64,000 nt of DNA from Owenia fusiformis (lineage: Eukaryota; Annelida; Polychaeta; Sabellida; Oweniidae). Shown here piece after piece: positions 1 through 50,192 of the stretch. Every line of letters starts with the position of its first letter. The stretch's first letter is position 1. The notes below the pieces were generated by a model that saw only the letters and a program-made list of their open reading frames with translations, did no database searches and had not been told where the DNA came from. The stretch is taken from assembly GCA_903813345.2 (NCBI GenBank), contig CAIIXF020000008.1, positions 33,442,867-33,506,866 on the forward strand, given 5' to 3'. The position numbers and the translations under genes are program-made.

Positions 1-3000
1 AATATTTCGAAACACTGTGCTTGTTTGTTCATTTTTCTCAACTTGATTGAGTTTTTAAAAACAGGAAAAATAAAAACAAATTTTCAAACAAATATTTGGC
101 GGGAAAAATGGCGGCACTAAATGACGACGGCAGTGATTTTTATTGAGAGCCTATTTGATAGTGATTCTGATCTCTCTGGTGTCCGAAGCAAGTCAGATGA
201 TGATGGGAATATTCCCATACCTTGTAATCAGTGAAGATGTGTCCCTGGTCCTCAGCAATCAAAGGAAAGATTACAATTTGATAAGGTAAATGGCCCGGGA
301 GGACCAGAAAAATTCCAGTCAAGATTTTTTTTGAGTTGTGTCAATTATAATCGACATTGTAAGTTATCAGCTGAATTATTTGAACTGAATTATTTTCATC
401 TAACTATTAGATGAATACTATTATCGAACATATTTTATTTAAAGTGTAAATAGAGCAAATAACATACTTGGAAAACTAAGTCACATGACTTGATCATGGT
501 GATCATGTGACATTCAAAATGGCGCCATCAAGGTTAAAAATGAACAAATTTGCTCTTCAATATATCGCATATTCTTGAGGGATCATTGTCTTTTTGCAAT
601 GTAATGACACAGAGAAAGGTACTGTATGTATATCTGATAACAAATATTTATTGATTTTATGATATTTATGGCTCTATAGTGTCTAAACCACTCATGAACT
701 GCAGAATTCATGAATTTTTTTTCAATTTTATTTTTGATTTTCTTATTGTTTCTTTATCATTTCATTGTACTATTTCATTGCACTGTTTCATTGCCATGGA
801 CAATGCAATACATATACTAGAATAGTATACCGAATACTCCTTTACATTGACGTGTATGTACAATATCCATGCATCTAGAGCTGATAGCAAACTTTTTCAA
901 AGACAAATACAGTTGGGAATTACCTTCTTCTAAGGCCACCACATGTATATCGTGAGAATTGGCTTGAGACTCGAGTGGACAGGTGGATTTTCTATCACCA
1001 ACCATGGCCATCTGAAAGCCCCTTACTTTCCAACATTTTTAACATTGGAAATCCTCACTTCATTAAATCCACCTGTCATTTATTTATGTTCCAATCTGTG
1101 TCAGATGTTTTTTAATTGAATTACAGTAATGTTGTATTTCAGTCCAGTTTTGCCTTAGTTGTCCCACCTCAATTTATTTTTTTAATCCCTGCTTTGACTA
1201 CAACATAGTCAGTCACTGAATAAAGTGAAGAGCTATACTGTTGTGAACTTCATGTATAGCTGACAATATATGTTTTAGGAACCAGACAGAGCAAACAATA
1301 CCAAATGCCGCATCAATGATATTTACTTTGATTAATACATGGATGGAGTTTGGGATCATATGACTGCTGAAAGTACAGTGTAATGTTATGCTGAACAACT
1401 GCAATGTACAGGTAGGCAATTAAACAGTGTTTCAGTGTTTACCAATATTACTAGAGTATAGTACATAATTGCAATTTATGTACATGTACAAGCTTTATGA
1501 TATTGATTATAATTAATGTAGTATAGTACAATACAATGTACTGTTTTACAATACATAACAACATGTACAAAAGTGTTTAACAGTATGTGTTCAGCATGAA
1601 GGTCATATTTGTATATCAAAAGGGATGTACCAATAATTTTTTATCTACTGTATTCATTCAGGTAGTTATACAGTACCTGTACCCGTAACATGGGTGAAGC
1701 CAAACTTGAGACAGGTGAGGCTTTTGCCTCACCACCATTTTTCAGGAAAACATTTATTTGGACAATATGTGTATATTAAGTCTGTGAAGATAAAGGAAAG
1801 CACATTATTCTAGTATTGCCCCAATAAAATCAATTTGATCTCTGGAAGAGGCAGATTTAAATTTAGGTAAACACTCTACTTCAGCTTCAGTATAAATATT
1901 TTTTTGAAATTTCCCTCATTTCCATTATGGCTACTTCCTTGTATATAGTAAATGTTATGTTATATAGAGATTATTAAATGGGAGAGATGGTATATGAATT
2001 TTATTCTGGGGGGAAATATTATATTGGCCAAGGAAAATATCATATTGACCGAGGCAATAGCCCAAGTGTCAAAGTGATATTCTTCGAGATCAATATCACA
2101 TTTTCTCAGGGAAAATACTAATACTCCAACACAACTGAAACTTATTTATAAGTTTTGAATGTCATCACCCAATGATGGTGTGATATAAAATGATACAATT
2201 GAATTCTTCTGATATCGGATCCAATATGGGATCTGATACAGGATTTTTCCTGATGCGAAATCTTATTTTTTTCCCAGGGAAAACATGCTATTATAATTAT
2301 GGAATAAATATTTATATACAATGATCTTTCCTTTACAGCACAAAGAGAAGAGGAGTTTCTCAAAGATTGCAGTAGGCTATACAGTGGGAAAATACAGTAC
2401 ATCCATCTCTGAATGAAAGCCTTCATTGAGATGCTGCTAAATATGTGTTTGATTCAGAAACAACACTGGAGTCATATTGGACAAAAACAAGGTAATGTTT
2501 GTTTTATCACTGATGGCCAAGGGGAAAGGCAGGTGTCATTCTCGGCCTAAAGGCTGAGAGGCCGTTTCTTTGTACTTTTCTTTGGCATTTTTGAAAAAAG
2601 TGGACCCAAAGCTCATTTATTTAAATTCAAGTCCCGCAAGTCAATTTCCAGAGCCAACCCTGAACATATGTGTATTGCCATTATTGTGACACTATAACCT
2701 TTTCATAAGATTAATTAGACTAATCAGAAGACTGATTATAGAGTATTTTATAGGTCATGTACAGAAACAGGTCACTAAATAAAATAAAAACATTTTGTAA
2801 TGTATGAATTCAAATCATGAAGTAAAATGATACAAAGTACTGTGTATGAAAAAATGAAAATTCGGCCTAAAATGAAAAATTTGGCCCAAAATGAAGATTT
2901 TTGAAGGAAAAAGAATTTAATTTTAGAAAAGAAAATTCGAAAAATGAAAAATCATGATCCTAGGAAAATAAACCCCACGTTCAATCCCTCCAAGTAAATA

Positions 3001-6359: not shown

Positions 6360-9300
6360 CTAAGCCTCGTTCTGGTCTGACGACAATGAAGTGAGATATA
6401 AGTTCAGAGCAATATCACTTCCAGCCTCATTTACATCAAACGTTCCTGAACATTCTGGACACTTTGCATTAAGTAGTTTTCCAGAAAAATCAATCACTTT
6501 AGACACAGCTTTGCATATTGGGCAAGTGTAGTCAGCAGTATTTAGGCCTTTTAAGGTATCGAACAATTCGGTCGCGACACTGGCGCCGTTTTTAGCAAAT
6601 GCATCAATTTCAGACTTTGTAAGGTCATCTTCTTCCCAGAATACATCAACAAATTTGATATCGAATACACTGGCCTCCTGAACTCTAAAAAAGCCGCTGT
6701 CAGCCCAATCACTTCCATGTGAGCCCATAAATCGCAAGTACTCACTTGTGTAGCTCGTGAGAACCACGGCATGTTCATCTAGACTGTCATCTGATGAATG
6801 TGTTCTGATATCGATATCAGATCTAGTAAGGATTCCACGTGGACGATCATTGTAAAATTTAGTGAAAGCATTCCAATCGACTTCGGCAAGCTTAAACATT
6901 GCCAAGACTGGGCGTTTTGCGGAAACTGCTTTCATTGCTCCTAACTCATCAACCTGTTGGCAATGAAGACGGTATTCAGCACATGTTTTCTTAAGTATAT
7001 CCAAAGATGGCGCTCCACTGTCTTCATATTTTCTCAATATATAGTTGCGCAATTTAATGTAGTCAGGATATCCGCCATCACGGGAGAAGATGCGCTTCAT
7101 AGCAAGATGCATCACTGCAGATGAGGCATTAGCAAACGTGAAAAGGCGACTGTCTTTGACAGCGAGCCCTTGGTTGGCTCTATTGATGTATAAATCGAGT
7201 GACACAGAGGATAAAACATCCGATAGGGCATCCTGGCAACAAACAACATTCCTCACAAGGTCGCAAACGTCGTCAATGATATCGGGATGATTAACTTGGC
7301 AGAATAAACGTGTTTCGTTGTTTGTTGTATCTATAGTCCATCCCCGTTTAACAAAAAGAGTTCGTGGTATATCTTGGGTTGTTATCGTTGAGCTCCACTT
7401 AAACATCAACTTTGCTGCCCTTTCCCACTCACGGTCTTCAGGTAGCACACTATACAGACAGCGTGGGTTATGTATATCTGCACTATTCGTAATGAAACAG
7501 CATATTATTTTCACATCTAATTCATGAAGCTCTTTGGGTAGTTCTTTCCCATCAGCGGGCTCACCATCGGATATGATGAAGAGCACCTTCTTGTGCTTCT
7601 GAAATTGTGGTCTTCTAAATACCTTCACTGCATGGTGTGATGCCTTTATAAGTGGTGTACCACCATATATGAATGGTTCGACGATTTTCATGAGGTCAGA
7701 AACACGATCATTTTTAAGGTCGATTGCAGATTCACTACCATGTAGTATATTCGATGCCTCGTTGCCGCTATATGTAATCGTATGTTCTCCTGAAACACCT
7801 TTCAGTCCCCAGGCAAGTTTTATACCGCTTTCTATCATATTTCGTATTTCCAAATTTGTGGCTTCGGGAATTGAGGGCATTGCTACAAACAGGTTTATCA
7901 TCATGAATAAATATTCTCTCATTTTACCAAGTATTGAAGGGGGAGGGTGGCATTCACTTGGAAGACATTCATGTACAAATCTTGTTCTAAAATCACAATC
8001 TTCCTCGAGTGTGCTTAGAAGTACTGTTGTCTCAGAATCTTCGACATTTTCCAACAAAACGCTGATCTTCGCCCACATCCGAATTCTCGGTGCACCATTG
8101 TTTTCTAGTATCTTTAGTATTTTTTCGAACGTGTCTTTTGAGAAATATTCAAATCCTCTTTTCACTACATCTTTGATTTTGGCATTTTTAATTGACTGGT
8201 CCTCGGCGAGGCATTCCTGACCTTGAGATATAATGCCTTGGGGCTCTGTCCTACATATCTCAGGTAGAATTTCGTGAACAAATACCTTTCGAAAATCAAC
8301 CACGTTGCTAAGTTTGTCGAGTAAAGTGTAAGCTTCAAAGTTTGAAACTAATCCAATCAACTCATCTGCGTCTGCCCACTTTTGAACCCTGGGCGCTCCA
8401 TTTGATTTAAGAATCAATAATATTTTCTGCAACGTACTCTTATGAGCAAGTTTAAGTCCCTGGTTTACTGCGTCTTCGATATCTTTGTGTATTCCCACAC
8501 GGCATCGGATGGGCAGAACTTCTCCGACAAGCCTTTTTCCTAGTTCAGAGTTTTCCTGTTGTAGTTTTTCAAGAATTATCTTAGCCTCTGACTCATAGAA
8601 AGTATCAGGTAAACCACATCCTTTTGACAGCCATCTTACGTTTGCGCCATATTGTTCCAATTTTGACATGATTTCGTCCAAGGTTTCTAGTTTTATTTTT
8701 GTTCTAATTGTCCCACCATCTTTTTCAAAACCAGTATCTGTTCGATCCCTTGGTCGATCTCGTATCGATATCCTACGGACTTGTTCAATGAATACCTTTG
8801 TTAATTCTTCAATGAATATGAATTGTGCAAATGAATTCAGAATACTTCGAATATTACGTTGGTCGTCTACTTCAACATCATCTACGAGCAAGTTACGTTC
8901 TGACATTGTTTCAGCAAGATTTATCGCCGCATCTATAGTTTCACGTGGTTTAGAAATCTTGGGATCAGGATTAGAATGCATGAAGGCATTCCATACCTGA
9001 CTTATTGCACCAACCAAACTTTCCCGAGGCGTATGACAACTCTTGGGGAGACATTTTTCCACGAATTTTGTTCGGTAATGTTTGTTGTTTTTTAGGTTAG
9101 AAAGTAACACTACTACCTCAGTGATGTCAACGACTTGCACCAGGCCATCTATATTTGTCCAAGAGCGAATCTGGTTTGCACCATTCTCTTCGAGTAATGA
9201 TAACAATATCTTAATTTTTCTTTTTAGAATAGACTGGACCCATTCATACACGCAATGTTCGACATTCCTTATCGAGACTGGGTAAGTGGATTGATCATAA

Positions 9301-10729
9301 TTATCATATATCCTTCGGGTAAAGGGATGTACAAATATTCTCTCTTCAAATGCGGTATAACGACGTCCGAGCATATATAATATTTTAGTCGCGTGTAAAA
9401 ATGGAACAACACCTGGTGTCCGTTCGACACTACGCTCAAGAACAGATAAGATATCTGAGAGTATTTTAAAAAGGTAAAGCTCGACTTTCGTGTTTGAAAC
9501 TGGATGGGTGGATTGATCATATTTATCGTGTATCCTTCGGGTAAATCGATCTACAAATATTCGATCTTTTAGAGCAGTATTAGGACTTTCACCCCTTTGT
9601 AAGATGTCGATCTCGTCAAAAAGTGAAATAATATCTGGAATCCGAAGCACATTTCGCTCAAGAACAGATGAAATATTTGAGACTATCTTAAGAGCGAGGA
9701 GTCCTCGTTGATCCATACGGAATTCCTCAAGGGATTCCTCAGGCAACAACTTATCCAAATTCCTTTGTGCAGATAACAACTCATCCATAAAGCCTTTTCT
9801 GTATACTTCATTTTCTCTTAGAGAGTCAATCGCTTCAAAGGCCATGTCAGCATTGATTTCATGAAGTACATCTGTCATATACACACAGGGACGAATTTCT
9901 ACCCCGTTCTGTTCTGCTATCGAAAATATTTCATCCAACTGTTCCAGCAAAAATATTTTGCGTAGCATAAATGGAACATTGTTTTGTTCGATAGATTCTC
10001 CAACCATACAATGTACAAATATGTCCCTAACAAAACAGTTGTTTTCAAGAGTGTTCAAGAAATGAGTTGACTCAGATAATGATATCACATCAAGTAATGA
10101 CCGATCACGGCCCAGTTGATTTCGTACCACATTGACGCACTCTGTTTCTAGGATTGAAACTATCTTAGAAATGTCCAATTGAATTGCAAGTTCAATTCCC
10201 TTTCGAATCACATCTCGACTTTCTTCCTGTATTCCCTCACGACATTGTCGAGGCAGCGACTGAACGAACTCTTTTCTGAATTTAGTATCCTCTTCAAGTT
10301 TTGCGAGTAATTGTTGAGCGTTAAAAGTTGACACGATTTCAACCAAAGCATTCATAATTGAATATGAACAAATTTCTGGAGCACCGTTATCTTTTAAAAG
10401 CTCGCATATTTCCTTGAGGAGTTCACGTTTAGATTTGTATCGCTTGATGTGTGCCTCGTCCTTAAGTTTGTGTTTAGATTTGAACGAGGTTTGAACTTTC
10501 TCAACTGTGTTCAACAAGTCGAAAACGACTGGTTCATTTGGCGCTCCAAATCCCAATGCAAAAACTTGGTTGACTGAACTGACATCACGTTTAATTGTAT
10601 TGTCAATTGCAGTAAATGTTGATCTGGACCAGCTTTCTCCTTCACCGACCACCTTGTCCTCATCTACAGAAACCCTCATAGAACCAGACACATCAACGAG
10701 TATACCCGTCACGACATTTCTCCCCGTCT
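6360..10729 (-). CDS. large terminal exon: split VWA domain, helical repeats, papain-like domain, zinc ribbon
   Basis: One uninterrupted frame of about 1,456 codons. Numbering from the Val codon at 10712: MIDAS motif DVSGS at 7-11; about nine degenerate units of 50-60 residues (core NGAPxIRxW...LLxxLxxxxxFRxxFVxxxLPxxC) between about 100 and 930; the rest of the VWA fold with GGTPL at about 1017-1021 and ISDGEPAD at 1047-1054; a papain-like region at about 1175-1345; and a ribbon with cysteines 1397, 1400, 1418 and 1421. VWA domains bind ligands through a metal ion; the repeats are unknown to me. No ATG precedes the MIDAS motif in frame and a TGA lies at 10755-10757, so this is not the first exon. 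An acceptor AG at 10730-10731 would start the exon at 10729 in phase 1. No signal peptide or membrane segment is visible in this exon. Confidence 0.85.
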
Positions 10730-10754
10730 CTATAATTTTATAACTTATAATTAA

Positions 10755-11117: not shown

Positions 11118-11484
11118 GATGGCGAGTTGTATGTAGAGAATTCTATTTCTCGAGTTGAACAGGGCTTGGAATCATTGTTACAAGGTCTTTGAATAACAAA
11201 AATGTTGTTTTAAATAGGTTTTACTTATGCGATTGCTTAAAGTCTCTCGGTGGTACAAAATCTAAAACCAATAGAACCCATAACCAATAAGGCCATAGTT
11301 TGGGGGAATCTTGGGGAAAAATATGTTAGCTTGCTGTCTGACCATCAAGTAAAATTGTTGCTAAATAAAGATGTCAGTCAAATCTGGTTAAATACAACAT
11401 TACCCAAAATGGCATAAGTACATAGTATGTTCCTCATACATGTTTTATGCATCAGGTATCAAGAATTGGGGGATTAACAGTTAC

Positions 11485-12012
11485 CCTACTATCACACCAA
11501 ACTAGTTTTCACTACGTTCTCGAAAACGGGCGTCAACTGTGTACGAACGGACTGGACGTACTTAGAACCGTTTGGGGTATATTTCCTAACTTCACCGAAC
11601 GTACTCGAACGGGTAGGTCCTCTAGAATTTAGAACATGCCAAAATGTTCTCGTTCTTCAAAACTGGTTTTAAACTGTGTGCGAATGGAATGAACGTAGCT
11701 ACAACGTTCTACGGTCTGTTTACGAATTTCATGGACTTTCCCAGACGATTCAAAATTCGAAGGCGACCATACCGTTCTGTTATCAGGTCATGATGACCTT
11801 CTAGACTAAGGGACGCGTTCTACGACGTTGCACACCGACGTGGTGCGACCTGAACGAACTGCGAACGAGATGGACGTATTGAAGACTGTTTAAGAACGAA
11901 GAAGCTAATTATTTCAGACATATTTCCCGACCACAGCCAGATTGAGCCCGTTTGACGACGTTTTCGTAGGACTGGCATGAACGGGTGAGAACTAGTTTGG
12001 TGTGATAGGGGG
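11485..12012. mobile_element. foldback MITE filled with ACGTTC-type motifs
   Basis: The ends CCTACTATCACACCAAACTA and TAGTTTGGTGTGATAGGGGG are inverted repeats, flanked by GTTAC at 11480-11484 and 12013-12017. The 528-bp interior has many dispersed ACGTTC/GAACGT-like motifs in both orientations and no coding frame of note. The unit B copy at 39176-39729 has the same ends and flanking GTTAC. A 5-bp target duplication is inferred. Confidence 0.65.
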
Positions 12013-26734: not shown

Positions 26735-27296
26735 TGAAACAGTTATATTATGACCCACATTGATTACTGTTCCACTCTCATTTGGGATTTCCCGACCTCA
26801 TTACGAGTTTTGTCTTCATGCTTTTAAATTTAACTGGGCAAGTAAATTATATTGGAAGGGGGGAGAATCGCTCAAAGAGGACCATAATTCTAAAATTTCA
26901 TTCACGTACAGTATCTCTTAAAATGGCCAGCGTAACCTCCCTTAATAAATAGTAGTTTCATTTTATCTAAGACGGAAGTTGTTATAATTTATACAGATTT
27001 ATGTTTGTTTTATATTGTTATCGGTTTCATTTCGAAGAAGAGACACATGCTTCAAACTTTTAAGAACTGTTTAGAATTCATTCTTGAATATACTCTAGTG
27101 TCAATCGGGGGATAAACATGTCACGTGGATTTATTTTGGAAACCAAGCGAAAAGTGAGCATATACAAGCATAATACCTGGAGAAAAAAGAGAATTACACG
27201 TTGAATCAATATCGTGACTCAAAACAGAAAAAGTCTTGCTAAACATTTTCCATACATTTGATAAAAACATAATACTTCAACAATTGGTAATGCAAA
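26735..27296 (+). promoter_or_regulatory. conserved 5' flank of cGLR-A
   Basis: This block and its unit B counterpart (51078-51646) are nearly identical, much more alike than most non-coding parts of the two units. It is the likely promoter and 5' untranslated region of the cGLR. No TATA box in a convincing position was picked out. It holds a 28-codon upstream open frame (27118-27204). In unit A the 3.6 kb element inserted directly upstream, moving the inverted cGLR fragment away. Confidence 0.4.
27118..27204 (+). other. short upstream open frame preceding cGLR-A
   Basis: ATG to TGA, 28 codons (start MSRGFILETKRKV), ending 92 bp before the cGLR ATG. In unit B (51468-51554) it is the same length, and the only difference is GAA to GAG, which is synonymous. 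It may be a translational control element, or simply recent copy identity. Confidence 0.35.
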
Positions 27297-28904
27297 ATGG
27301 ATCAAAAACATTGGGAAGAGGTTCTTTATGATTTGAATTCAGAGCCTAAATACGATGGCGGCCCTGACACAAATGCTCCACTTTTCAGCAAGTGCAAGGA
27401 GAAAAAACTATCCACCGCTGTCTTAGAGATCTGCAAAAACATAACGTTAACTTCTAGATACACTCCATGTCAACTGACAACACACACGAATTACATAGAG
27501 AAACGTGTCACGATGATATGTGATAAACTAGGTAGTTTGTACCCCATTTTCAAGGTTTTTGATGTTCTGCCAAACGGAAGCTACTATCACGGAATGAAGA
27601 TATGTGACCCGGATGAAAAAGATTACCTAGCCATATTGGAGCTTTCACATCACACAGCCATGGCGATTGTTGAATTGAACACGGATAAACCTCAAGTTGA
27701 AATTATTGACAAAAAATTGGCTGAAAACATAAATGACACGTGTAAGAAACTTGGTTGTAGTGTACTTTCGTACCCAATAAGAGGTAAATTCCTTCTCGGA
27801 GATATTAGGATCTATATACACAAAGCAGTACATAAGTGCTTGTCTAAGCTTAGTGAGGAGGGTAAAGTGATATACAAGGGGAGGAGAGACACAAAGAAGT
27901 CCAATATAGATGGCTCTGTATTATCCCTAGGTGAAATAGAAATGGAACATGAATGGAATAAACCATGCGTAAAGCTCAGAACTGGGGCTGAACTTTGTAC
28001 CGTAGATGTAGACATTGCTTTTTGCCTCGTTGTACCAGATGACCTTCACCGGTTGCAGCAGTCAGCTGAATCACAAAAACCCCAAAATGACACTCAAAAT
28101 TCGTCAAATGACCAATATGAGCTGGCAGGGAGCAGGCCAAGGCAGCCTTCTACCAAGTACGGATATCGTATCGTGCTCCCAGTAGTTCAAACTCGCTACT
28201 GGCGGAAATCCTTTTACGAATTCCCGGAGTCGGGATTACTTAACAAGCCCCATAGACAAATTGTTATGGTGGTGAAATATATAATGCTCCTCTGTAATAG
28301 AGAAGGCTTCTGTCGCACCCGTTTTAGCTCCTATAGTTTCCAAACCGTGGTTCGGCATCACCAGGCAACATGTCTACACCAAGAGCGACGTGCTCAATCT
28401 CAAATTGATCACCAAAAGGCACGTTGTTTTCCGTCAGGGGAAGGGACCTTGGGCTCGTGTTTGTTTGATGTAGCTCAACGCGTGATGAACCTTATAGACC
28501 TGTCAGAAAAGAATAACATAGTAACGGTCGGTAACAGATTGAAAAATCTTCCTGATGCTAATGTAGTGGAAAATAACGTGTTCAGCAATAACATTCCTTA
28601 CCTGATGGACAAACTATTTGCTATTTTTCTTTTCATTTGGATTGATACCCTGAAGTCTTCCGATGATTCGCTCACTGGTCCACAATATCTAGATAGTCTG
28701 CAATCTCTTGTGGGGAAAGTGACGTCACTATTCATTGAGTCATGCAGGAACGTGTACAAAGAAGACTATAGGGACATAGATGGTAGTCTTGATCCTCTTG
28801 TTCAGATAAATAAGCTTCAGCGACTGATATCTTATAAAGAAAACTTGCCTCCAAACATTCCAGTCGATATCACCAGTCTTTTAAAACAATTGTCTGAAAG
28901 ATAA
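27297..28904 (+). CDS. cGAS-like receptor (Mab21-family nucleotidyltransferase), copy A
   Basis: Intronless frame of 535 residues; the ATG sits in AAAATGG, a favourable context. Nucleotidyltransferase signatures are all present: GS at 94-95 in LPNGSYYHGM, then E107 and D109 in DPDEKDY, and the third acidic residue D239 in VDVDIAF. YWRKSF at 301-306 matches the WRxSF segment of the Mab21 C-terminal lobe. In the family (cGAS and animal cGLRs) this triad binds two metal ions and makes cyclic dinucleotides after nucleic-acid sensing, for STING signalling. No clear cGAS-type zinc thumb is seen; His and Cys residues at 354-388 could be a divergent one. No signal peptide or membrane segment is visible. 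The start and stop are the same as in copy B. The ligand and product are unknown. Confidence 0.9.
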   Translation: MDQKHWEEVLYDLNSEPKYDGGPDTNAPLFSKCKEKKLSTAVLEICKNITLTSRYTPCQLTTHTNYIEKRVTMICDKLGSLYPIFKVFDVLPNGSYYHGMKICDPDEKDYLAILELSHHTAMAIVELNTDKPQVEIIDKKLAENINDTCKKLGCSVLSYPIRGKFLLGDIRIYIHKAVHKCLSKLSEEGKVIYKGRRDTKKSNIDGSVLSLGEIEMEHEWNKPCVKLRTGAELCTVDVDIAFCLVVPDDLHRLQQSAESQKPQNDTQNSSNDQYELAGSRPRQPSTKYGYRIVLPVVQTRYWRKSFYEFPESGLLNKPHRQIVMVVKYIMLLCNREGFCRTRFSSYSFQTVVRHHQATCLHQERRAQSQIDHQKARCFPSGEGTLGSCLFDVAQRVMNLIDLSEKNNIVTVGNRLKNLPDANVVENNVFSNNIPYLMDKLFAIFLFIWIDTLKSSDDSLTGPQYLDSLQSLVGKVTSLFIESCRNVYKEDYRDIDGSLDPLVQINKLQRLISYKENLPPNIPVDITSLLKQLSER

Positions 28905-33951: not shown

Positions 33952-34067
33952 CTGTCATTCCTCATGCACATTGGTGCTTTCAGCGTTTATATAAGCCAAA
34001 ACTTAACCTACTATCAGTTTTGTTTGTCACATTTTCATTTTTTGATTTGGCAAACGTCAAAATTATG

Positions 34068-37000
34068 CTAAGCCTCGTTCTGGTCCGACGACAGTGAAGT
34101 GAGATATAAGTTCAGAGCAATATCACTTCCCGCCTCATTTACATCAAACGTTCCTGAACATTCTGGATACTTTGCATTAAGTAGTCTTCCAGAAAAATCA
34201 ATCACTTTAGACACAGCTTCGCATATTGGGCAAGTGTAGTCAGCAGTATTAAGGCCTTTTAAGGTATCGAACAATTTTGTCGCGACACTGGCGCCGTTTT
34301 TAGCAAATGCATCAATTTCAGACTTTGTAAGGTCATCTTCTTCCCAGAATACATCAACAAATTTGATATCGAAGACACTGGCCTCCTGAACTCTAAAAAA
34401 GCCGCTGTCAGCCCAATCACTTCCATATGAGCCCATAAATCGCAAGTACTCACTGGTGTAGCTCGTGAGAACCACGGCATGTTCATCTAGACTGTCATCT
34501 GATGAATGTGTTCTGATATCGATATCAGATCTAGTAAGGATTCCACGTGGACGATCTTTGTAAAATTTAGTGAAAGCATTCCAATCGACTTCGGTAAGCT
34601 TAAACATTGCCAAGACTGGGCGTTTTGCGGAAACTGCTTTCATTGCCCCTAACTCATCAACCTGTTGGCAATGAAGACGGTATTCAGCACAGGTTTTCTT
34701 AAGTATATCCAAAGATGGCGCTCCACTGTCTTCATATTTTCTCAATATATCGTTGCGCAATTCAATGTAGTCAGGATATCCGCCATCACGGGAGAAGATG
34801 CGCTTCATAGCAAGATGCATCACTGCAGATGAGGCATTAGCAAACGTGAAAAGGCGACTGTCTTTGAAAGCGAGCCCTTGGTTGGCTCTATTGATGTATA
34901 AATCGAGTGAAACAGAGGATAAAACATCCGATAGGGCATCTTGGCAACAAACAACATTCCTCACAAGGTCGCAAACATCGTCAATGATATCGGGATGATT
35001 AACTTGGCAGAACAAACGTGTTTCGTTGTTTGTGGTATCTATAGTCCATCCCCTTTTAACAAACAGAGTTCGTGGTATATCTTGTGTTGTTATCGTTGAG
35101 CTCCACTTAAACATCAACTTTGCTGCCCTTTCCCACTCACGGTCTTCAGGTAGCACACTATACAGACAGCGTGGGTTATGTATATCTGCACTATTCGTAA
35201 TGAAACAGCACACTATTTTCACATCTAATTCATGAAGCTCTTTGGGTAATTCTTTCCCATCAGCAGGCTCACCATCGGATATGATGAAGAGCACCTTCTT
35301 GTGCTTCTGAAATTGTGGTCTTCTAAATACCCTCACTGCATGGTGTGATGCCTTTATAAGTGGTGTATCACCATATATGAATGGTTCAACGATTTTCATG
35401 AGGTCAGAAACACGATCATTTGTTAGGTCGATTGCAGATTCACTACCATGTAGTATATTCGATGCCTCGTTGCCGCTATATGTAATCGTATGTTCTCCTG
35501 AAACACATTTCAGTCCCCAGGCAAGTTTTATGCCGCTTTCTATCATATTTCGTATTTCCGAATTTGTGGCTTCGGGAATTGAGGGCATTGCTACAAACAG
35601 GTTTATCATCATGAATAAATATTCTCTCATTTTACCAAGTATTGTAGGGGGAGGGTGGCATTCACTTGGAAGACATTCATGTACAAATCTTGTTCTAAAA
35701 TCACAATCTTCCTCGAGTGTGCTGAGAAGCACTGTTGCCTCAGAATCTTCGACATTTTCCAACAAAACGCTGATCTTCGCCCACATCCGAATTCTCGGTG
35801 CACCATTGTTTTCTAGTATCTTTAGTATTTTTTCGAACGTGTCTTTTGAGAAATATTCAAATCCTCTTTTCACTACATCTTTGATTTTGGCATTTTTAAT
35901 TGACTGGTCCTCGGCGAGGCATTCCTGACCTTGAGATACTATGCCTTGGGGCTCTGTCCTACATATCTCAGGCAGAATTTCGTGAACAAATACCTTTCGA
36001 AAATCAACCACGTTGCTAAGTTTGTCGAGTAAAGTGTTAGCTTCAAAGTTTGAAACTAATCCAATCAACTCATCTGCGTCTGCCCACTTTTGAACCCTGG
36101 GCGCTCCATTTGATTTAAGAATCAATAATATTTTCTGCAACGTAATCTTATGAGCAAGTTTAAGTCCCTGGTTTACTGCGTCTTCGATATCTTTGTGTAC
36201 TCCCTCACGGCATCGGATGGGCAGAACTTCTTCGACAAGCCTTTTTCCTAGTTCAGAGTTTTCCTGTTGTAGTTTTTCAAGAATTATCTTAGCCTCTGAC
36301 TCATAGAAAGTATCAGGTAAACCACATCCTTTTGGCAGCCATCTTACGTTTGCGCCATATTGTTCCAATTTTGACATGATTTCGTCCAAGGTTTCTAGTT
36401 TTATTTTTGTTCTAATTGTCCCACCATCTTTTTCAAAACCAGTATCTGTTCGATCTCTTGGTCGATCTCGTATCGATATCCTACGGACTTGTTCAATGAA
36501 TACCTTTGTTAATTCTTCAATGAATATGAGTTGTGCAAATGAATTCAGAGTCCTTCGAATATTACGTTGGTCGTCTTCATCTACGGGCAAGTTACGTTCT
36601 GACATTGTTTCAGCAAGATTTATCGCCGCATTTATAGTTTCACGTGGTTTAGAAATCTCGGGATCAGGATTAGAATGCATGAAGGCATTCCATACCTGAC
36701 TTATTGCACCAACCAAACTATCCCGAGGCGTATGACAACTCTTGGGGAGACATTTTTCCACGAATTTTGTTCGGTAATGTTTGTTGTTTTTTAGGTTAGA
36801 AAGTAACACTACTACCTCAGTGATGTCAACGACTTGCATCAGTTCATCTATATTTGTCCAAGAGCGAATCTGGTTTGCACCATTCTCTTCGAGTAATGAT
36901 AACAATATCTCAATTTTTTCTTCTAGAATAGACTGGACCCATTCATACACGCAATGTTCGACTTTCATTATTGAGACTGGATAAGTGGATTGACCATATC

Positions 37001-38452
37001 TATCATATATCCTTTGGGTAAAGGGATGTACAAATGTTCGCTTTTCAAATGCAGTATAACGACGTCCGAGCATAACGAGCATATATAATATTTTAGTCGC
37101 GTCGAAAAATGGAACAACACCTGGTGTCCGATCGACACTACGCTCAAGAACAGATAAGATATCTGAGAGTATTTTAAGAACGTAAAGTTCGACCTTCGTG
37201 GTTGAAACTAGATGGGTGGATTGATCATATGTATCGTGTATCCTTCGGGTAAATCGATCTATAAATATTTGATCTCCAAGAGCAGTATTACGACTTTCAC
37301 GACTATGTAAGATGTCGATCTCGTCAAAAAGTGAAACATGACCTGGAATTAGATTCACATTTTGCTCAAGAACAGATGAGATATTTTAGAGTATCTTAAG
37401 AGCGACGAGTCCTCGTTGATCATTTTTGTATTTTTCTTGTATTTCCATACGGAATTCCTCAAGGGATTCCTCAGGCAACAAATTCCTTTGTGCAGATAAC
37501 AACTCATCCATAAAGCCTTTTCTGTATACTTCATTTTCTCTTAGAGAGTCAATCGCTTCAAAGGCCATATTAGCATTGATTTCATGAAGTACATCTGTCA
37601 TATCCACACAGGGACGAATTTCTACCCCGTCCTGTTCTGCTATCGAAAATATTTCATCCAACTGTTCCAGCCAAAATATTTTGCGTAGCATAAATGGAAC
37701 ATTGTTTTGTTCGATAGATTCTCCAACCATACAATGTACAAATATGTCCCTAACAAAGCAGTTGTTTTCAAGAGAGTTCAAGAAATGAGTTGACTCAGAT
37801 AATGATATCACATCAAGTAATGGCCGATCACGGTCCAGTCGATTTCGTACCACATTGACGCCTCCTGTTTCTAGGATTGAAATTATCTTAGAAATGTCCG
37901 ATTGAATTGCAAGTTCAATTCCCTTTCGAACCACATCTCGACTTTCTTCCTGTATTCCCTCACGACATTGTCGAGGCAGCAACTGAACGAACTCTTTTCT
38001 GAATTTTGCATCCTCTTTAAGGTTTGCGAGTAATTGTTGAGCGTTAAAAGTTGACACAACTTCAACCAAAGCATTCATAATTGAATATGAACAAATTTCT
38101 GGAGCACCGTTATCTTTTAAAAGCTCGCATATTTCCTTGAGGAGTTCACGTTTAGATTTGTATCGCTTGATGGGTGCCTCGTCCTTAGGTTTGTGTTTAG
38201 ATTTGAACGATGTTTGAACTTTCTCAACTGTGTTCAACAAGTCGAAAACGACTGGTTCATTTGGCGCTCCAAATCCCAATGCAAAAACTTGGTTGACTGA
38301 ACTGACATCACGTTTAATAGTATTGTCAATTGCAGTAAATGTTGATCTGGACCAGCTTTCTGCTTCACCGACCACCTTGTCCTCATCTACAGAAACCCTC
38401 ATAGAACCAGACACATCAACGAGTATACCCGTCACGACATTTCTCCCCGTCT
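34068..38452 (-). pseudogene. VWA/repeat/papain-like gene, copy B, with one in-frame stop
   Basis: The counterpart of the unit A exon, with the same acceptor position (exon start 38452), domain order, MIDAS DVSGS, ISDGEPAD and terminal ribbon. A single TAA at 37386-37388 replaces a Ser codon (TCA in copy A) about 350 codons in, within the fourth repeat. Everything after stays in frame for about 1,100 codons. All indels against copy A are multiples of three: +8 codons after EEFRM, -3 (DKL) near RNL, +3 (VML) near LYML, and -2 near VDE. One ribbon cysteine is Tyr (KYPECS for KCPECS), so the zinc site may be weakened. It may be a recent pseudogene, a truncated N-terminal product, or an assembly/allelic error. 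Confidence 0.8.
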
Positions 38453-38737
38453 CTATAATTGTATAACTTATAATTAATCAAACGTATATCCCTTTTGTTC
38501 ATTTTCTAATAGCATTTGGATCTTTAAAATGTGATTCATTTCACTTAATTCATTTCATCTAATTTTATTAATTTGCGTCAGCTTTTTAGCAGTTAGTGGT
38601 TAATGATCGAGATTCTAAAACTCAAATATAAAGGCTAACAACAGACCCTAAGAACAATTGGGAATTTATATTTCTTTGTCAAGAAATTGTGGTATTTATA
38701 AAATGGCACAACCTGAAAGTCAAGGAAGGATGGTGAG

Positions 38738-38838
38738 TAGCCTTGCCCAAGTCGGTCTCTTTTACTTATCTTGATCATTTGTATTGTAACTCAAGATCAG
38801 ATATGTAAAAATAATACCGACTTGCATGGGCAAGGCTA
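38738..38838. mobile_element. small MITE, unit B copy
   Basis: The same TAGCCTTGCCC...GGGCAAGGCTA element as at 11024-11117, with a small internal difference (GACTTGCATGGGCAAGG). The left flanking repeat has one mutation (GGTGAG for GGCGAG). Confidence 0.75.
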
Positions 38839-39175
38839 GATGGCGAGTTGTATTCTCGAGTTGAACAGGGCTTGGAATCCCTGTTACAAGGTCTTTGAAT
38901 AACAAAAATGTTGTTTTAAATAGGTTTTACCTATGCGATTGCTTAAAGTCTCTCGGTGGTACAAAATCTAAACCCAATAGAACCCATAACCAATAAGGCC
39001 ATAGTTTGGGGGAATCTTGGGGGAAAATATGTTAGCTTGCTGTCTGATCATCAAGTAAGATTGTTGCTAAATAAAGATGTCAGTCAAATCTGGTTAGATA
39101 CAACATTACCCAAAATGGCATAAGTACATATTATGTCCCTCATACATGTTTTATGCATCAGGGATTAACAGTTAC

Positions 39176-39729
39176 CCTACTATCACACCAAACTAGTGCT
39201 CACTACGTTCTCGAAAACGGGCTTCAACTGTGTACAAACGAACTGGACGTACTTAGAACCGTTTGGTGTCTATTTACCAACTTCACCGAACGTACTCGAA
39301 CGGGTAGGTCCTCTAGAATTTAGAACATGCTAAAAATGTTCTCGTTCTTCAAAACTGGTTTTAAACTGTGTGCGAACGGAATGAAAGTAGCTACAACGTT
39401 CTACGGTCTGTTTACGAATTTGATTGACTTTCCCAGACGGGGAACGTGATTTAGAATTTTGAATCGATTCAAAATTCGATGGCGACCATACCGTTCTGTT
39501 ATCAGGTCATGATGACCTTCTAGACTAAGGGACGCGTTATACGACGTTGCACAATGCACACCGACGTGGTGCGACCTGAACGAACTGCGAATGAGATGGA
39601 CGTATTGAAGACTGTTTATGAACGAAGTAGCAAATTATTTAAGACATATTCCCCGACCACAGCCCCGTTTTACGACGTTTTCGTAGGACTGGCAAGAACG
39701 CATGAGAACTAGTTTGGTGTGATAGGGGG
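39176..39729. mobile_element. foldback MITE with ACGTTC motifs, unit B copy
   Basis: Counterpart of 11485-12012, flanked by GTTAC on both sides (39171-39175 and 39730-39734). The interior has small indels relative to unit A. Confidence 0.6.
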
Positions 39730-40144
39730 GTTACCCATAAACTGAACTGACATTATGTATAGGCTATGTTTACAAGTCCAACTTCCATGGTTTAGAGAAT
39801 TCAAAACTTACTGATAGCCATACTTTTTATTACATTGATATATTATAGCAATTCTGAATGGTAATACATTAAAAACAAGTATTTATTTACTAGAAAGTTG
39901 CAATGAATTGTATCAGTTACCTAAATTTTTATTCCATTGCCTTGATCCATGGACTACATTATGAAGAGAAATGGTAACGGAAGTGTCTTTTCAAAAGATC
40001 GAAAAAAATAAAGTGACCTATCATTTGAACACTTAAGGTTGTCCTGTATGTTCGGAATTTTGTATACACATTTCAGTTTTGCACAAAGACTACATTAATT
40101 ATAAAAAAAATAGTACCATGGCTACTGGGCTCACATGGTGTTGC

Positions 40145-41125
40145 TCAAAAGTGAATGATGGCTAAAATGACAGAAAATAAAAAAAAAACGGATATAATTT
40201 TTTGCCGATTTTTTGTAACAAAATTATTTCATACAACTACTCTTTACAGAGACGTGGCTTTTTACAATGCAGGACACCTGAAGTTATTTGTAAAGCTAGG
40301 TAATGGACCAAAAGTGAAATTCACGAGACAAAAATGGCGTCCATTTTTAAAATAGGCGAGCTTTTGAAGCATGAGTCACAGTTTTTTTTATTGATGTTGA
40401 ACAAAAATATTTTAAAACGGGAATCTAATCGACTGCAGTGGATTTAAAAAGAGCTAATTGTTGACAGACAGAGGTTTTAAAACTTGCCTTTTTGGACTGA
40501 CTGAGAGACAGATGGACAAATCAATCATGTTAACTAAAATGGCTGAAAATAAAAAAACGGATATAATTTTTTGCCGATTTTTTGTAACAAAATTATTTCA
40601 TACAACTACTCTTTACAGTGACATGGCTTTTCACAATGCAGGACACCTGATATTATTTGTAAAGCTCTAGGAAATGGGCCAAAGGTGAATTTCGCGACAC
40701 AAAAATGGCGACCATTTTGAAAATAGGCGAGCTTTTGAACTAGGAGTCATAGGGGAGTTTTTTGGTATTGATGTTGAACAAAAATAACTTAAAACGGGAA
40801 TCCTATCGACAACGGTTTTAAGGCAAATGGTCCAAATGTGGATTTCGCGAGACAGATGGACAAATCAATGTTAACTAAATTTTTCTCCACATTGACATGG
40901 ATTTTTACAATGCAGAACACCTGACATTATTTGTAAAGCTAGGAAATGGGCCAAAAGTGATTTTCGCGAGACAAAATTGGCGGCCATAGGCGAGCTTTTG
41001 AGCCAGGAGTCATAGGGGAGTTTTCTGTATTGATGTTGAACAGAAATAACTTAAAACAGGAATCGTATCGATAGAGGTTTTAAAAAGTGCCACTATTGTT
41101 GACGGACGGACAGGCAAAAGGACAG
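40145..41125. repeat. imperfect tandem intronic repeats, unit B
   Basis: Counterpart of the interrupted repeats at 13390-15770. The empty target TAGGAAAT of the 1.55 kb element is at 40668-40675. One additional partial repeat (about 40880-41060) is absent from unit A. Confidence 0.55.
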
Positions 41126-41966
41126 ACAGAATTTTCTATTTTTTACTATACATTTTACAAACAACTACAGTACTATTTCTAGATACATTAGTGCACTCTG
41201 TGCAAAACTGAAAAAATGTAGACAATGTGGGGAAGGAGTGTTTCATATTTTGAAAAATAAAATGTGACTCATATAACATTTACTTGATCTTTTTCTTATT
41301 TTTGTACCTTGCTAATAACTGCTTTAAATGGCATACAAGTTCGGGAAACAATTACCAACGTACCAAACGTATTACCAAACGTATTTATACCACTCTAAGT
41401 CAAATTATAGTTGTATAACAGGTGTCTATAACAACAATATGTAGTGGAGAGTGGTATATCGTCATCGTATACACTCCACCGTATACCACTCTAGCGTATA
41501 TCACTGTAGAAGTGCATTTTGGGAACTAATCAATATAGAAAAACTTTTATTGCTATTGGAAGATGGCGTGGTTGTGCATCACAGTGACAACTAGCCACAC
41601 TCTACCCATGAAGACTAGCGATCTGCGCAGGCGCATCGGTTAAATGTACTAGAAGTTCACGGGATATCTCTGCCTGCATTGATCTTCTGCAAAAACAGCA
41701 ATGGCGGATGTCGTAGGAAAACTTTTGACCTAAAGGTAAACTGAAGTTGCCGATTTTCACAGTATACTATAATATATGAGGCTACAACTATAATTGGACT
41801 AAGAGTGGCATAATAAGTTTATATATAATGGTTCATTCTGTATATCGTGTTTTTTATACTCTTGTGAGTATATGATGTATTCACAAGTGAGCGTAGCTCA
41901 TACTCATTCGAGTATAAATACGATATACAGAATGACCCATTATATAACCTGACTTACCTGACTTAC

Positions 41967-42062
41967 CACTATACTCCAGTGCATCTTCATATGCATCATC
42001 AGCATCATCATCGTTAGATTCATCTTCAACTGCATAATAATTCCACCTTGGATCTGCGGTAG
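41967..42062 (-). CDS. candidate 96-bp symmetric exon, copy B1
   Basis: Same length, phase and splice signals as A1 and A2: donor GTAAGT at 41961-41966 and acceptor after TTTTGCAAAG. It reads DPRWNYYAVEDES, then DDDADDAYEDALEYS. A second GTAAGT lies 9 bp further on (41952-41957), giving an alternative donor that would add exactly three codons. Confidence 0.55.
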
Positions 42063-42528
42063 CTTTGCAAAACACAAGAAAATAGGAATCATGTCTTACC
42101 ATCCCAGTAAAAATGACCATCAAAAACATATATTTGTATAATGCCTATGTATTGCCTCTATCATTGGACAATTGCAATATGTAATTTTCGACTCTTTAAA
42201 TTATTAGCAGCACTGGAAAAAAAGCATATACAATGTTCACAACTGTTACCAAAATGCAGTTAAAAATTAAAATATACTCATTTTTTTATCCTATTCCTGA
42301 CACGTTTTTACTAAATTATAATAAATTCAAAAATATTGTTTTTATCCGATTCTGATTATTTCAGAGTGTGAAAAATTAGTCGTGTATTCGTGAATTCAAA
42401 TAGCGACTCGCGGCTACAGTTTTTTGCACTTTGAGGGCAAACTCATTTAAGTATGTAAAATGCCGTGCATTCCGTTAGCTGCCACCTCTCGCTTCAAACC
42501 CAGTCGCTGACCTAAATAATGTGTTAAT

Positions 42529-43457
42529 CAGGGGGCCATTAACCACCCTATGCAGACAGAGCCTGTGGGAAATATTGGGTGCGGCGCAAATGAGCGGAGG
42601 GTGCGGAGCTAACGGTCATTTTTGAATTTAAAATTGGGATATTTCTGAAACTAAGCCGTTTTGGGACTTCAAATATACCAAGATATGTGTTTTTGACACC
42701 AAATATCAATAAAATTGTGAAAATAGTAGTGCAATTCATTTTATAGCGACGCAGTATGCCTTAAACATTTCCCAGACCTATATATTTTGAGACTATCCTT
42801 TTAATACTGCGTCCCCAGCATTCATAAAAAATGGTGTTCAAGATACACTACCAATGCGAATTATTTTTGCATCTTGGACGCCAGGCAGTATCTGTGTGAT
42901 TTTATAAAAATTCCGCACCCAATATTTAGAGGGGCTCATATCTGAAGAACATTTCCGAATTTTTATAAAATCACACAGATACTGCTGGCTTCCAAGATGC
43001 AAAAATAATTTGTATAGATAGTGCACCTTGAACACCATTTTTTATGAATGCTGGGGACTCAGTATTAAAAGGATAATTTCAAAATATATAGGTCTGGGAA
43101 CGGTTTAAGGCACAATGCGTCGCTATAGAATGAATTGCGCTACTATTTTCACAATTGTATTGATATTTGGTGTCAAATACACATATCTTGGTATATTTGA
43201 AGTCCCAAAACGGCTTAGTTTCAGAAATATCCCAAATTTAAATTCAAAAATAACCGTTAGCTCCGCACCCTCCGCTCATTTGCTCCGCACCCAATATTTC
43301 CCACAGGCTCTGTCTGCATAGGGTGTTAACAGAAGCTTCATAAAGTTAAGAATTCGTAAAACCCATTGTTCTCTAACTGTGACGTCATAATATCCATGGT
43401 TACAACAATTAATTTAGAAATTCGTAACTTTACTAAGTTTCTGTTAATGATCCCCTG
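42529..43457. mobile_element. giant-hairpin foldback element, unit B only
   Basis: The ends CAGGGGGCCATTAAC and GTTAATGATCCCCTG are inverted. Between them are inverted arms of roughly 370 bp (about 42550-42920 against 42950-43322), for example AGACAGAGCCTGTGGGAAAT and its complement near 43300. This leaves almost no loop. The site in unit A (about 17003-17010) is uninterrupted, though the exact target duplication is unclear. Short frames on both strands are mirror images of the same arm. Confidence 0.75.
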
Positions 43458-44154
43458 CCTATTTAGAAGCATGTAGCAGTGACCTACGATCTGTTTAATT
43501 TCTAATTCAACCGAGCGGCATTATTATCAAATCGATTCATATTGGCATAAAAATCTTGTGATCCTGATCCGGTTAATCCAGATCAGGTTAATCAGGTTAA
43601 TCCGGTAGCCGCTAGCCGCTATTTGCATGCGCGAATACAAGCCCAGATTCAGGAATCGACGGAAAAGTTAATTTTTATTGTGAATTATGGGGAACTGTTT
43701 TGTTCTTAACCACCCCATACCTCTTCCAGAGTTTACTTTCGACATCTGTGCACTTTTCGTATCTGTTCATCAAGACATGTTACCGACCATCTGATATGAC
43801 ATTTTTAACGTTCTTTCAGAAACGTATATCAATAGTGAGGAACTAAAACCGTGAATTTATCGCTTCTGGATGATGCTACATGTATATCATTGATAGTATT
43901 TTATTATATAGATTGTGCGCTAACTGCACGTGTATGATTATCGTGAAACCCGTCCTAGAAAAGGGTTTAAAGGAAAACAAAATATCTTGCGAAAATCTAT
44001 CACCGGAAGCCTGGCAATCTTGATGCGACAACACGGTGTTGTTGCATCACGATACCCCCCCCCCCCCCCCCCGTGATTAACTTTTTTCAGTGGCGTCAGA
44101 TTTAGAATAAACTCGATTATGAATATATACGATGGGCCTATTTACCTGACTTAC

Positions 44155-44250
44155 CACTATACTCCAGTGCATCTTCATATACATCATCAGCATCATCATC
44201 GTTAGATTCATCTTCAATTGCATAATACTTCCACCTTGGATCTGCTGTAG
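44155..44250 (-). CDS. candidate 96-bp symmetric exon, copy B2
   Basis: Donor GTAAGT at 44149-44154, acceptor after TTTTGCAAAG, phases 1-1. It reads DPRWKYYAIEDES, then DDDADDVYEDALEYS. With B1 it shows that the exon pair predates the segmental duplication. Confidence 0.55.
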
Positions 44251-44472
44251 CTTTGCAAAACATAAGAAAATAGGAATCATGTCAAACCATGCAGTAAAAA
44301 TGACCATCAAAAACATACTAGCAGACGTATATTTCCTATTGATTGAGGCAATCAATAAAGGATCTTAAAGGATATGTAAATAAGTATTTTTCGCTTCTTA
44401 AAATTATAACTTTAGTAACCCAAAGGCATAATTATGCAATGTTCACAACTGTTACTTAAATGCAGTAAACAA

Positions 44473-44974
44473 TAGAGGAGTTTCTAAATAGCTTTAAAAT
44501 CTCGCTAATTCTCGTTTTTACATGAGATTTTAAGAGATTTGCACTTTTTTCCTCTAATGAATTACTTTTCTTTATTTTTGATAGCATATTTGGATTCAGT
44601 GACACATTTTCTCCAATTATAGCTTTGATTTAAACAGTATTGTCATTTAAATCACTTTCCATGACATTTTTAAAAAAACTTGGGTCAAATTTCCATTGGT
44701 GCAATGCTGAAATTCATTAAAACCTTGGTTTATTCGTATGACAACCAATATTTTCATGGTTAATCACAACGTGTACATGGACAGGGTCATCCAATAGTAT
44801 GCCATTCAAGTTTCAGACAGATTCAACCAACACTCTTTGATAAATCATGGAATTAAGTGACTGTTGCAGGTTTCTAACATTGGAGTGAGTGGAGGTCTGG
44901 CCCTAGAAAATCAAAGACAAACAAGGGTGACATCTATTATGTCAGCATTTTTCAGCTATTTAGAAACTATACTA
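44473..44974. mobile_element. 502-bp insert with AGTTTCTAAATAGCT inverted ends
   Basis: Left TAGAGGAGTTTCTAAATAGCT-type and right AGCTATTTAGAAACTATACTA-type ends pair over 15 perfect bases. Unit A reads straight through this site (about 20051-20056), but no target duplication is visible. The interior has no recognised gene. Confidence 0.6.
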
Positions 44975-45867
44975 TTAAAACATACTCATTTTTATCCTAT
45001 TCTTGACATATTTTTACTAAATGATGAAATCACATTTAATATTGTTTTCTGTTCTTTTATTCGAATCCAGACTTTTTCAGAGCGTGGAAAATTATTCAGA
45101 TCCAGGAATCGATGGAAAGATGGATTTTTTTTATTAAGTTAAAATACTTTTATTTAGTTATTGCATTAAAGTAAATTATTTGAAAATTTTGCTATTTTTA
45201 ACTCACCCATATCTGCATATGAAACCAGGTGCGTGTGGGCAAAATTCAAATCCTGTCTCTTTCTTCATTCGATTTGGGCAGTGATTAAAAGTTAAAAAAT
45301 GCCATGATGGCCTTAATGGCCTTAAACTCAAAAGTACGATCCACTTTCGGCATTTGGGCGTAATGTTCTTATCTTTGATATTTTTCCTTGGAATGGTTAA
45401 CCTCACTTATATGCCACGCACTTGTATACTCCAGTATTATAAATGTGTTTAGATGATACGAGACAGATTTCGCAACTCACTTATAGCATATTTATTATTC
45501 TCGTATAACGTATAACTTATGAATCGTTTGATTACGTCATTATTTATTCCGCAGCTCTATACGTCCATACGTGTGATAATCTTATAAATCGTCGTCTATA
45601 CGTAAGATGACGTAATCAAACGCTTCATAAGATATACGTAAAACGGGATTAATACACATGCTATAAGTTAGTTGCGAAAGTTTCTATTATGTTATCCAAT
45701 TGATTTACGATTAACGGTTCAGACCAAACGCGACTGTCATGATGTGCAATTCCTATTCAAAATGGCCGTAATGTTTCTCTAGAATGTTCTACTTCTACTT
45801 GTACTAGGCCTACGACTTCTTCGAAATGTTATCTGGCGCTATATATAGGTAAAATATCTATGTCAAT

Positions 45868-46715: not shown

Positions 46716-46829
46716 AATATGTTTTTTATCTAACGATAAACATATTAAACTATCACAGAATTCAATATTTGTTTTATTATTTCCTCATTAAAGTAGCACA
46801 CAGTATCAAAGTTAGAAGTACACAATAGT

Positions 46830-49800: not shown

Positions 49801-50190
49801 TATCCGAACACTGTATACAAAGAAAATCTGGCCAGTTGTCCATCAGTAAATAAATCATCATGATAAAAGTATAATTTATTAAAGCATCCATTTGTTACCG
49901 TTCTGAATCCAAATGATACATAGGTGCATCCATTTTATACATATATGTTGACGTTTACGAAATGTTTTTCAAATATCTTCCCTATAACAGGAATATTTCA
50001 CACATTGTCAGACTATGTATATTGAATATGTATGCAAGATTTCAAGTCACAATGTTAAGTAGAAAATCTGAGATCACTTACCTCGATTTGCTGTCATATT
50101 TTTGCAATGATCCCATTCCCTATAATGTACGCGAGCACCCACGATACATTACATATAAATGACTGCATCCACATAGATCGACTAGCCACA
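46830..50190. other. unit B-specific divergent tract
   Basis: This stretch has no match in unit A. No gene was recognised. It contains a direct repeat of about 170 bp (48169-48341 and 48663-48836, sharing GATTACAAAAGGATTAATTG), G tracts near 48377 and 49536, and several short frames without motifs. Confidence 0.45.
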
Positions 50191-50192
50191 GT

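Follow-up and report, generated by a model that had tools for sequence, protein, structure and literature searches.

A VWA-domain gene of Owenia fusiformis with helical repeats between its MIDAS motifs, and sister genes with a single repeat

This study describes a gene in a 64,000-nucleotide stretch of the annelid Owenia fusiformis (GenBank assembly GCA_903813345.2, contig CAIIXF020000008.1, positions 33,442,867 to 33,506,866), referred to here as the window, that encodes a von Willebrand factor A (VWA) domain whose metal ion-dependent adhesion site (MIDAS) motifs are separated by an array of helical repeats. The gene occupies the minus strand, which had not been stated in the original prediction made from the letters alone, as a single open frame (6360..10754) of 1464 amino acids, the product of which is called W1 below. 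In W1, the DVSGSM motif begins at residue 21 (DVSGS, 21-25), GGTPL has its Thr at position 1033, and ISDGEPAD has its Asp at position 1063, giving spacings of 1012 residues from the first Asp to the Thr, 1042 from the first to the last Asp, and 30 from Thr to Asp. These measurements bear out the claim that the DxSxS motif stands at the start of the exon with the other two motifs about 1,010 residues further on. The accompanying claim that such motifs normally sit close together also held, since in ordinary VWA sequences from this genome, of which 18 were measured, the first [DE]G came 71-114 residues after the first Asp and, in 16 cases, 100-114 residues after it, as measured by a crude rule taking the first DG or EG, the low values of 71 and 87 being taken as an earlier DG or EG caught by that rule. 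The 18 sequences came from 18 fetched loci, one of which (L008) gave two sequences and another (L015) none.

The family search performed over the same genome (498 Mb, 525 contigs) identified three more full-length genes on contigs C9, C5, and C6, named here after their contigs, with open frames of 688, 712, and 750 amino acids, respectively, together with the fragments L006 and L007 on contig C8; a second search with the C6 protein yielded no additional locus. In these sister genes, DVS[G/E]SM sits in an N-terminal piece, behind which come a single helical module (NGAPRVR-W, FRRRFV-ECLP), a linker, and finally the G[G/R]TPL and SDG motifs. The distance from the first Asp to the Thr is 241, 241, and 279 residues in C9, C5, and C6, and the distance from Thr to Asp is 30 in all four genes measured, while the match of W1 to C9 skips from W1 residues 13-101 to residues 876-1458. 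As three sisters carry one repeat between the MIDAS motifs, the arrangement is a genuine family layout, and an assembly or frame artefact as its source is ruled out. The first motif, the Thr, and the Asp are present in all five full copies (W1, the second copy in the window, C9, C5, and C6), with the variants DVSESM in C5, GDTPL in the second copy, and DVSST in fragment L006. These data demonstrate that the common layout in this genome is one helical module between the MIDAS motifs, and that the window locus has many; the single-repeat state is presumably older than the array.

Three further observations concern this family and other VWA sequences. The linker behind the repeat of C6 (L005) has a hydrophobic stretch resembling a glycine zipper at residues ~185-219 (Pfam Gly-zipper_Omp, E 0.0012, under the cut-off), and this could touch a membrane. 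L006 and L007 (G000:C8:21.035-21.056 Mb) represent a further family member in pieces over ~20 kb, with stops in some matches, which is either broken or interrupted by introns. A dense cluster of VWA exon matches, many with near-identical scores, was found on contig C1 (G000:C1:37796585-37866938).

The original prediction counted about nine repeats in the insert. A hidden Markov model (HMM) trained only on the one repeat that each of four paralogous frames (C9, C5, C6, and L006) contains recovered seven repeats in W1 at E<=7e-4 (6e-30 to 7e-4, as E for one sequence, with limits set after iteration). The weakest scored 5.7 bits and the other six 12.7-89.2 bits, compared with six matches at E<=0.05 in 200 protein shuffles, the best of which reached 4.6 bits. 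The array therefore likely comprises, as judged from these scores and from the alignment, seven recognisable repeats, the weakest just above the shuffles, and two diverged units (R4 and R5), so that seven of the predicted repeats were found as such and the other two are likely only. The last repeat, R9, adjoins the second part of the VWA domain. Among the seven it is the one most like the single repeats in the paralogs, at 50-55% identity against 23-46% for the other six, which fits growth of the array from the R9 position. The spacers between the repeats differ greatly in length.

Structure prediction for R9, with 14 repeat rows from the window as the alignment, gave one long helix and three short ones with a mean predicted local distance difference test score (pLDDT) of 89.8 and a predicted template modelling score of 0.76 in the best of five models (69-76 for the mean pLDDT of the others); a single repeat is thus predicted to be a small helical bundle. 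The suggestion that a profile search of one repeat might lead to a known helical fold has so far brought no significant match in Pfam, in the PDB by sequence, or with Foldseek. The 14 repeat rows matched Pfam only at E>=0.001, scattered over 17 families with at most two rows each, and the best E by sequence in the PDB was 0.09, both of which were judged to be chance. Foldseek with the R9 model returned nothing below E 3.8 in the PDB or 2.5 in BFVD, and the best VIA-align hit, to MntR, had a Z of 5.6, a level common for helical bundles. From the sequence pattern we had suspected a CARD or death-like fold, which is still a candidate although none was among the matches listed.

Whether the two parts of the VWA domain belong to one fold was evaluated with hhalign by comparing the joined parts of the five copies with a profile of the 18 ordinary VWAs. 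Joined in order, the parts scored 40.2 (probability 85%), compared with 29.4 for the C-terminal part alone and 29.0 in permuted order, and after shuffling the columns of the N-terminal part the mean was 29.2 and the maximum 35.1, with none of 200 shuffles reaching 40.2. Therefore, the first MIDAS motif fits the remaining VWA in order and spacing. In Pfam, the natural frames gave VWA matches under the cut-offs, C5 and C6 having none at E<=1. After joining, C9 and C6 passed PF00092 (25.0 and 24.0 vs 23.8 bits) and W1 did not (19.5), while the C-terminal part of C6 alone had no Pfam match listed at E<=10; the permuted control for this gain covers W1 only. From the printed alignment, the insertion point appears to lie between beta3 and alpha2, a loop that in VWA folds is opposite the MIDAS.

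Several results weigh against the reading of one split domain. Shuffling the columns of the N-terminal part only after the first motif gave a mean of 40.4, and 91 of 150 shuffles reached the unshuffled score, so the profile gain on joining comes solely from the first motif at the right distance. A scan of 177 deletions in the three short paralogs raised the uncut score of 25.5 to 35.2 at the presumed true cut (start 70, length 200) and to 40.5 at best. Many placements restored the VWA match provided that the first motif kept its distance, and since the scan favours other cuts, the insertion point is not fixed by the profile. A search of the PDB with the uncut profile of the three short paralogs, covering the whole interrupted VWA, gave no VWA chain at E<=1. 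Joining raised the VWA_2 match of W1 from 15.3 to 22.3 bits, but the permuted control reached 22.1, and this comparison was dropped as proof of the order of the parts. AlphaFold2 on residues 9-1135 gave an unusable model (mean pLDDT 31.1), its alignment having three rows from the two window copies only. An N-terminal DxSxS piece and an independent C-terminal half-VWA, as two separate domains, would agree with the lack of any structure in which both pieces are packed and of a detectable VWA profile signal in the residues after the first motif. That arrangement is nevertheless improbable: the ~72 N-terminal residues are too short a stretch to make a separate VWA, the C-terminal part has neither beta1 nor the first MIDAS motif, both pieces and the MIDAS residues are kept together in five of five full copies, and the two pieces are under similar constraint (ratios of nonsynonymous to synonymous substitution, dN/dS, of 0.15 and 0.16). 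The architecture is very probably one VWA domain split by an insert. Of the predicted insertion within the VWA fold, the placing of helical repeats after the first MIDAS motif and ahead of the other two stands by virtue of the three single-repeat sisters, and the packing as one fold is a proposal.

The original prediction missed the second copy of the gene in the window, the single-repeat sister genes, and the last ~320 residues of W1, which form a papain-like domain (peptidase family C1) and a zinc ribbon. A five-row profile including the window copy matched dipeptidyl peptidase I, mexicain, papain, and cathepsin B in the PDB, with a best E of 8e-4. The Pfam C1 model was matched above its cut-off by fragment L007 (22.5 vs 20.7 bits), just under it by C5 (20.3), and at 16 bits by C9 and C6; the W1 frame alone had no Pfam C1 match at E<=1 and is tied to the family by alignment. 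The catalytic Cys, His, and Asn are intact in C9, C5, and C6, in the motifs CYANAS, HAVVL, and MNSWG. In W1, TFANAS stands for CYANAS and MGSHG for MNSWG, HAVVL is kept (His1328), and no Cys occurs between residues 1173 and 1258. As the catalytic Cys and Asn are absent from both window copies and the His alone is kept, the window copy is, judged by its sequence, a papain-like pseudo-enzyme.

Table 1. Features of the W1 gene and its second copy, in window coordinates and W1 residues
Feature	Position	Residues	Strand	Basis or remark
VWA part 1: beta1, DVSGS, presumed alpha1, beta2, beta3	10503..10718	13-84	-	Also present in three short paralogs; elements assigned from alignment
Whole insert, 929 aa		85-1013	-	Limits by our own cut
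Helical repeat R1	10239..10442	105-172	-	HMM 47.1 bits
Helical repeat R2	10008..10172	195-249	-	HMM 12.7 bits
Helical repeat R3, weakest of seven	9774..9944	271-327	-	HMM 5.7 bits; shuffle best 4.6
Diverged unit R4, likely repeat	9501..9701	352-418	-	49% identity to R5, E 3e-20; missed by HMM
Diverged unit R5, likely repeat	9279..9479	426-492	-	49% identity to R4; 13-residue HMM stretch 430-442, E 0.03
Helical repeat R6	9033..9224	511-574 (first HMM pass 515-574)	-	HMM 54.2 bits
Helical repeat R7	8499..8705	684-752	-	HMM 27.0 bits
Helical repeat R8	8250..8453	768-835	-	HMM 54.4 bits
Helical repeat R9	7947..8138	873-936	-	HMM 89.2 bits; model pLDDT 89.8
Linker after array, partly hydrophobic, length varies among paralogs	7716..7946	937-1013	-	Alignment
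VWA part 2: presumed alpha2, MIDAS Thr1033, Asp1063, remainder of fold	7359..7715	1014-1132	-	Pfam VWA matches under curated cut-offs
Papain-like C1 domain with approximate limits, catalytically dead as judged from its sequence	6570..7334		-	Alignment; Pfam PF00112 in paralogs; PDB papain-family profile matches
C-terminal zinc ribbon	6450..6524	CPIC (1411) ... CPEC (1432)	-	Weak Pfam Zn_ribbon_TFIIB; 4 Cys in 5/5 alignment rows
Second gene copy, protein 94% identical	34068..38477		-	One in-frame TAA at its codon 364

Both gene copies lie in a tandem block duplication (6249-28991 vs 33952-53339), the collinear pieces of which are 91-95% identical by self-comparison. The changes in the second copy include G1032D, next to the MIDAS Thr, and C1432Y, which affects the zinc ribbon. 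No frameshift separates the copies (17 gap codons), and Nei-Gojobori counts between them gave dN/dS values of 0.15 and 0.16 for the N- and C-terminal VWA parts, 0.19 for the C1 domain with the zinc ribbon, and 1.11 for insert residues 93-955. The insert had 77.5 nonsynonymous and 19.5 synonymous differences and the remaining frame 17.5 and 24.5, a contrast with a Fisher p of 4.6e-5 when the counts are rounded; a codon bootstrap placed dN/dS at 0.72-1.9 for the insert and at 0.10-0.38 for the rest (estimate 0.19). The corresponding differences were 19/5 in R1-R3, 34/9 in R4-R5, and 23.5/5.5 in R6-R9; since dN/dS was 1.0-1.2 in each, the contrast with the flanks is independent of any single segment. 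These data indicate purifying selection on the frame around the insert, and an insert that is unconstrained and fast-changing. Between C9 and C5, dN/dS was 0.32 for the single repeat, 0.56 for the linker, 0.14 and 0.21 for the VWA parts, and 0.18 for the C1 domain with the zinc ribbon.

Besides the VWA gene, the duplicated block carries a Mab21-like gene. The two open reading frames concerned, at 27291-28904 (+) with 537 amino acids and at 51641-53251 (+) with 536 amino acids, are 92% identical and have at least 103 family matches in the genome. From the pattern GSYYH, DVDIAF, and WRKSFYE, we take them to resemble Mab21/cGLR-type nucleotidyltransferases. In Pfam, they had no Mab-21 match at E<=10, and one of the two relatives scanned (L027) had a weak one (E 0.08). 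Mab21-like protein matches also occur directly upstream of the window (G000:C8:33420983-33423349). The cGLRs are described as strongly expanded in some bivalves and cnidarians (PMC9980059). At ~11480-12010, upstream of the first VWA gene copy, inverted ends of 19 bases, CTATCACACCAAACTAGTT ... AACTAGTTTGGTGTGATAG, were noticed by eye and may mark a miniature inverted-repeat transposable element. Two minisatellites at 59339-60600 (90 bp, 14 copies) and 61178-61693 (99 bp, 5.2 copies) have unit lengths that are multiples of three, with one frame open over part of each and the related peptides YFGDF and CFDFGDF.

The original prediction knew of no named family with such a layout, and none came to light here: no library model, with Pfam, NCBIfam, and PADLOC among those searched, matched the whole combination of VWA, array, and C1 domain, and among the titles and abstract openings listed in searches of open-licence PMC literature, none describes the layout. 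Matches of NCBIfam and PADLOC models, namely TIGR04509 (23 residues of W1), CARF3 (W1), and LeoBC, PDC-M09A, and YiaD (the Gly-rich linker of C6), were judged meaningless. A plasmid collection contained one papain-domain match, over 44 residues.

VWA domains bind acidic partners through the MIDAS. Such binding to rubisco has been proposed for CbbO (PMC4660213). Several known systems share single aspects of the arrangement found here. In RrgA, a pilus adhesin of S. pneumoniae, and PilB, a type IV pilin of S. sanguinis, added arms are likewise carried by VWA loops; however, these are bacterial pilus adhesins whose arms flank the MIDAS, and neither a helical repeat array nor a papain domain is described for them in the sections consulted (PMC8179133). 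The VWA of TFIIH p34 is similarly intracellular, with a C4 zinc motif at its C-terminus and, joining beta3 to the helix that follows, a link of variable length, although its linker is disordered instead of a repeat array, its MIDAS is disrupted, and a protease domain is not mentioned in the corresponding sections (PMC4094531). Bacterial MoxR-vWA ternary systems also combine a vWA with a C-terminal peptidase-type domain that is often inactive: in one class of these conflict systems, ~9% reportedly have a peptidase fused at the effector position, which is inactive in ~70% of the caspase cases and almost all of the trypsin cases (PMC7159879). These differ in having a MoxR ATPase, mostly trypsin or caspase folds, and a helical linker that follows the vWA rather than splitting it (PMC8195603). 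The paralogs share CYANAS, HAVVL, and MNSWG with the papain family, which differs in that the C1 domain is here fused behind a VWA with no apparent signal peptide, the Cys and Asn being lost in the window copies.

We give about an even chance to the following explanation as a whole, of a family in which the VWA is interrupted by a ~70-residue helical module and a linker and followed by a C1 domain and a zinc ribbon. The long protein may be a MIDAS scaffold with a fast-changing binding arm, and it may act in immunity. As the first ATG of each short paralog frame directly precedes beta1 of the VWA, the proteins are probably intracellular, without a signal peptide unless an upstream exon supplies one. 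By analogy with the bacterial MoxR-vWA conflict systems, we propose a sensing arm coupled to a papain-like output: the MIDAS face would bind an acidic partner, the helical arm would leave the VWA from a loop and bind a variable ligand, and the C1 domain would be the output, with an active protease freed or positioned by binding in the sisters, and with the dead protease of the window copies serving as a peptide-binding or dominant-negative regulator. We regard this mechanism as less probable than not, and its chain from ligand to output is wholly inferred. In the most far-reaching reading, the array may be the rapidly diversifying recognition arm of an intracellular animal receptor that signals via the MIDAS fold, in which the sisters have an active papain-type output and the window copies are decoy-like, in a duplicated block with Mab21/cGLR-like genes; we assign this reading a probability of roughly 0.2.

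Several points speak against the recognition-arm reading. An insert dN/dS of 1.1 is also expected from relaxed constraint, and relaxed and diversifying change are not told apart by it. The 72 amino acid changes of the insert are unevenly placed, 30 of them falling in residues 351-505; in the seven repeat cores, changes hit 7 of 211 residues in conserved columns and 18 of 234 in variable ones (p 0.06, a trend only); and charge is altered by 33 of the 72 insert changes vs 8 of 18 elsewhere, which is no excess. Relatives outside this genome were not confirmed among viral contigs, genome contigs, or phages, in collections without animal genomes and, for the contigs, in scans seeded from two to six short peptides, which are weak negatives. 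The long form may, moreover, be decaying. In both long copies an in-frame ATG is missing ahead of the VWA, and from the ancestral start to the common TGACGGGT stretch they are 4 nt shorter than C6, which puts that start out of frame. A long form en route to a pseudogene, with an array grown by slippage or unequal exchange, a dead protease, and only the one-repeat sisters working, would also account for the stop at codon 364 and the lost zinc Cys of the second copy, the missing catalytic residues, and the insert dN/dS of about 1. We regard this as a serious possibility that falls short of being probable, since the low dN/dS outside the insert is not expected of a long-dead pair, the two copies show no frameshift, and the frame of the first is open over 1464 codons. 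As the flanks are still constrained, a start from an upstream exon is possible, or constraint was lost recently.

It is rather unlikely that the array only serves an intracellular adaptor or scaffold as a structural spacer or spring, changing fast because little is demanded of its sequence. The balance of charge changes and the very unequal spacers agree with such a role, no binding motif was recognised in the helical repeats, and the linker of the short paralogs is loose as well. The single repeat of C9 and C5, however, is constrained in a manner that exceeds what filling space would demand of the module.

VWA domains with added arms and fusions of vWA with peptidases are already known; their combination here, with an insert of about nine repeats where the sisters have one, matched no single model in the libraries searched. 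In this gene, a repeat array very probably expanded within a globular fold, with the remaining frame staying under constraint, and the one-repeat layout in the same genome makes the steps directly comparable. The three short paralogs, with frames of 688-750 amino acids, are tractable for structure work. If the array binds a ligand, it would add a novel kind of intracellular recognition arm to those of animals, linked to a papain-like domain with catalytic residues that the sister genes retain and the window copies have lost.

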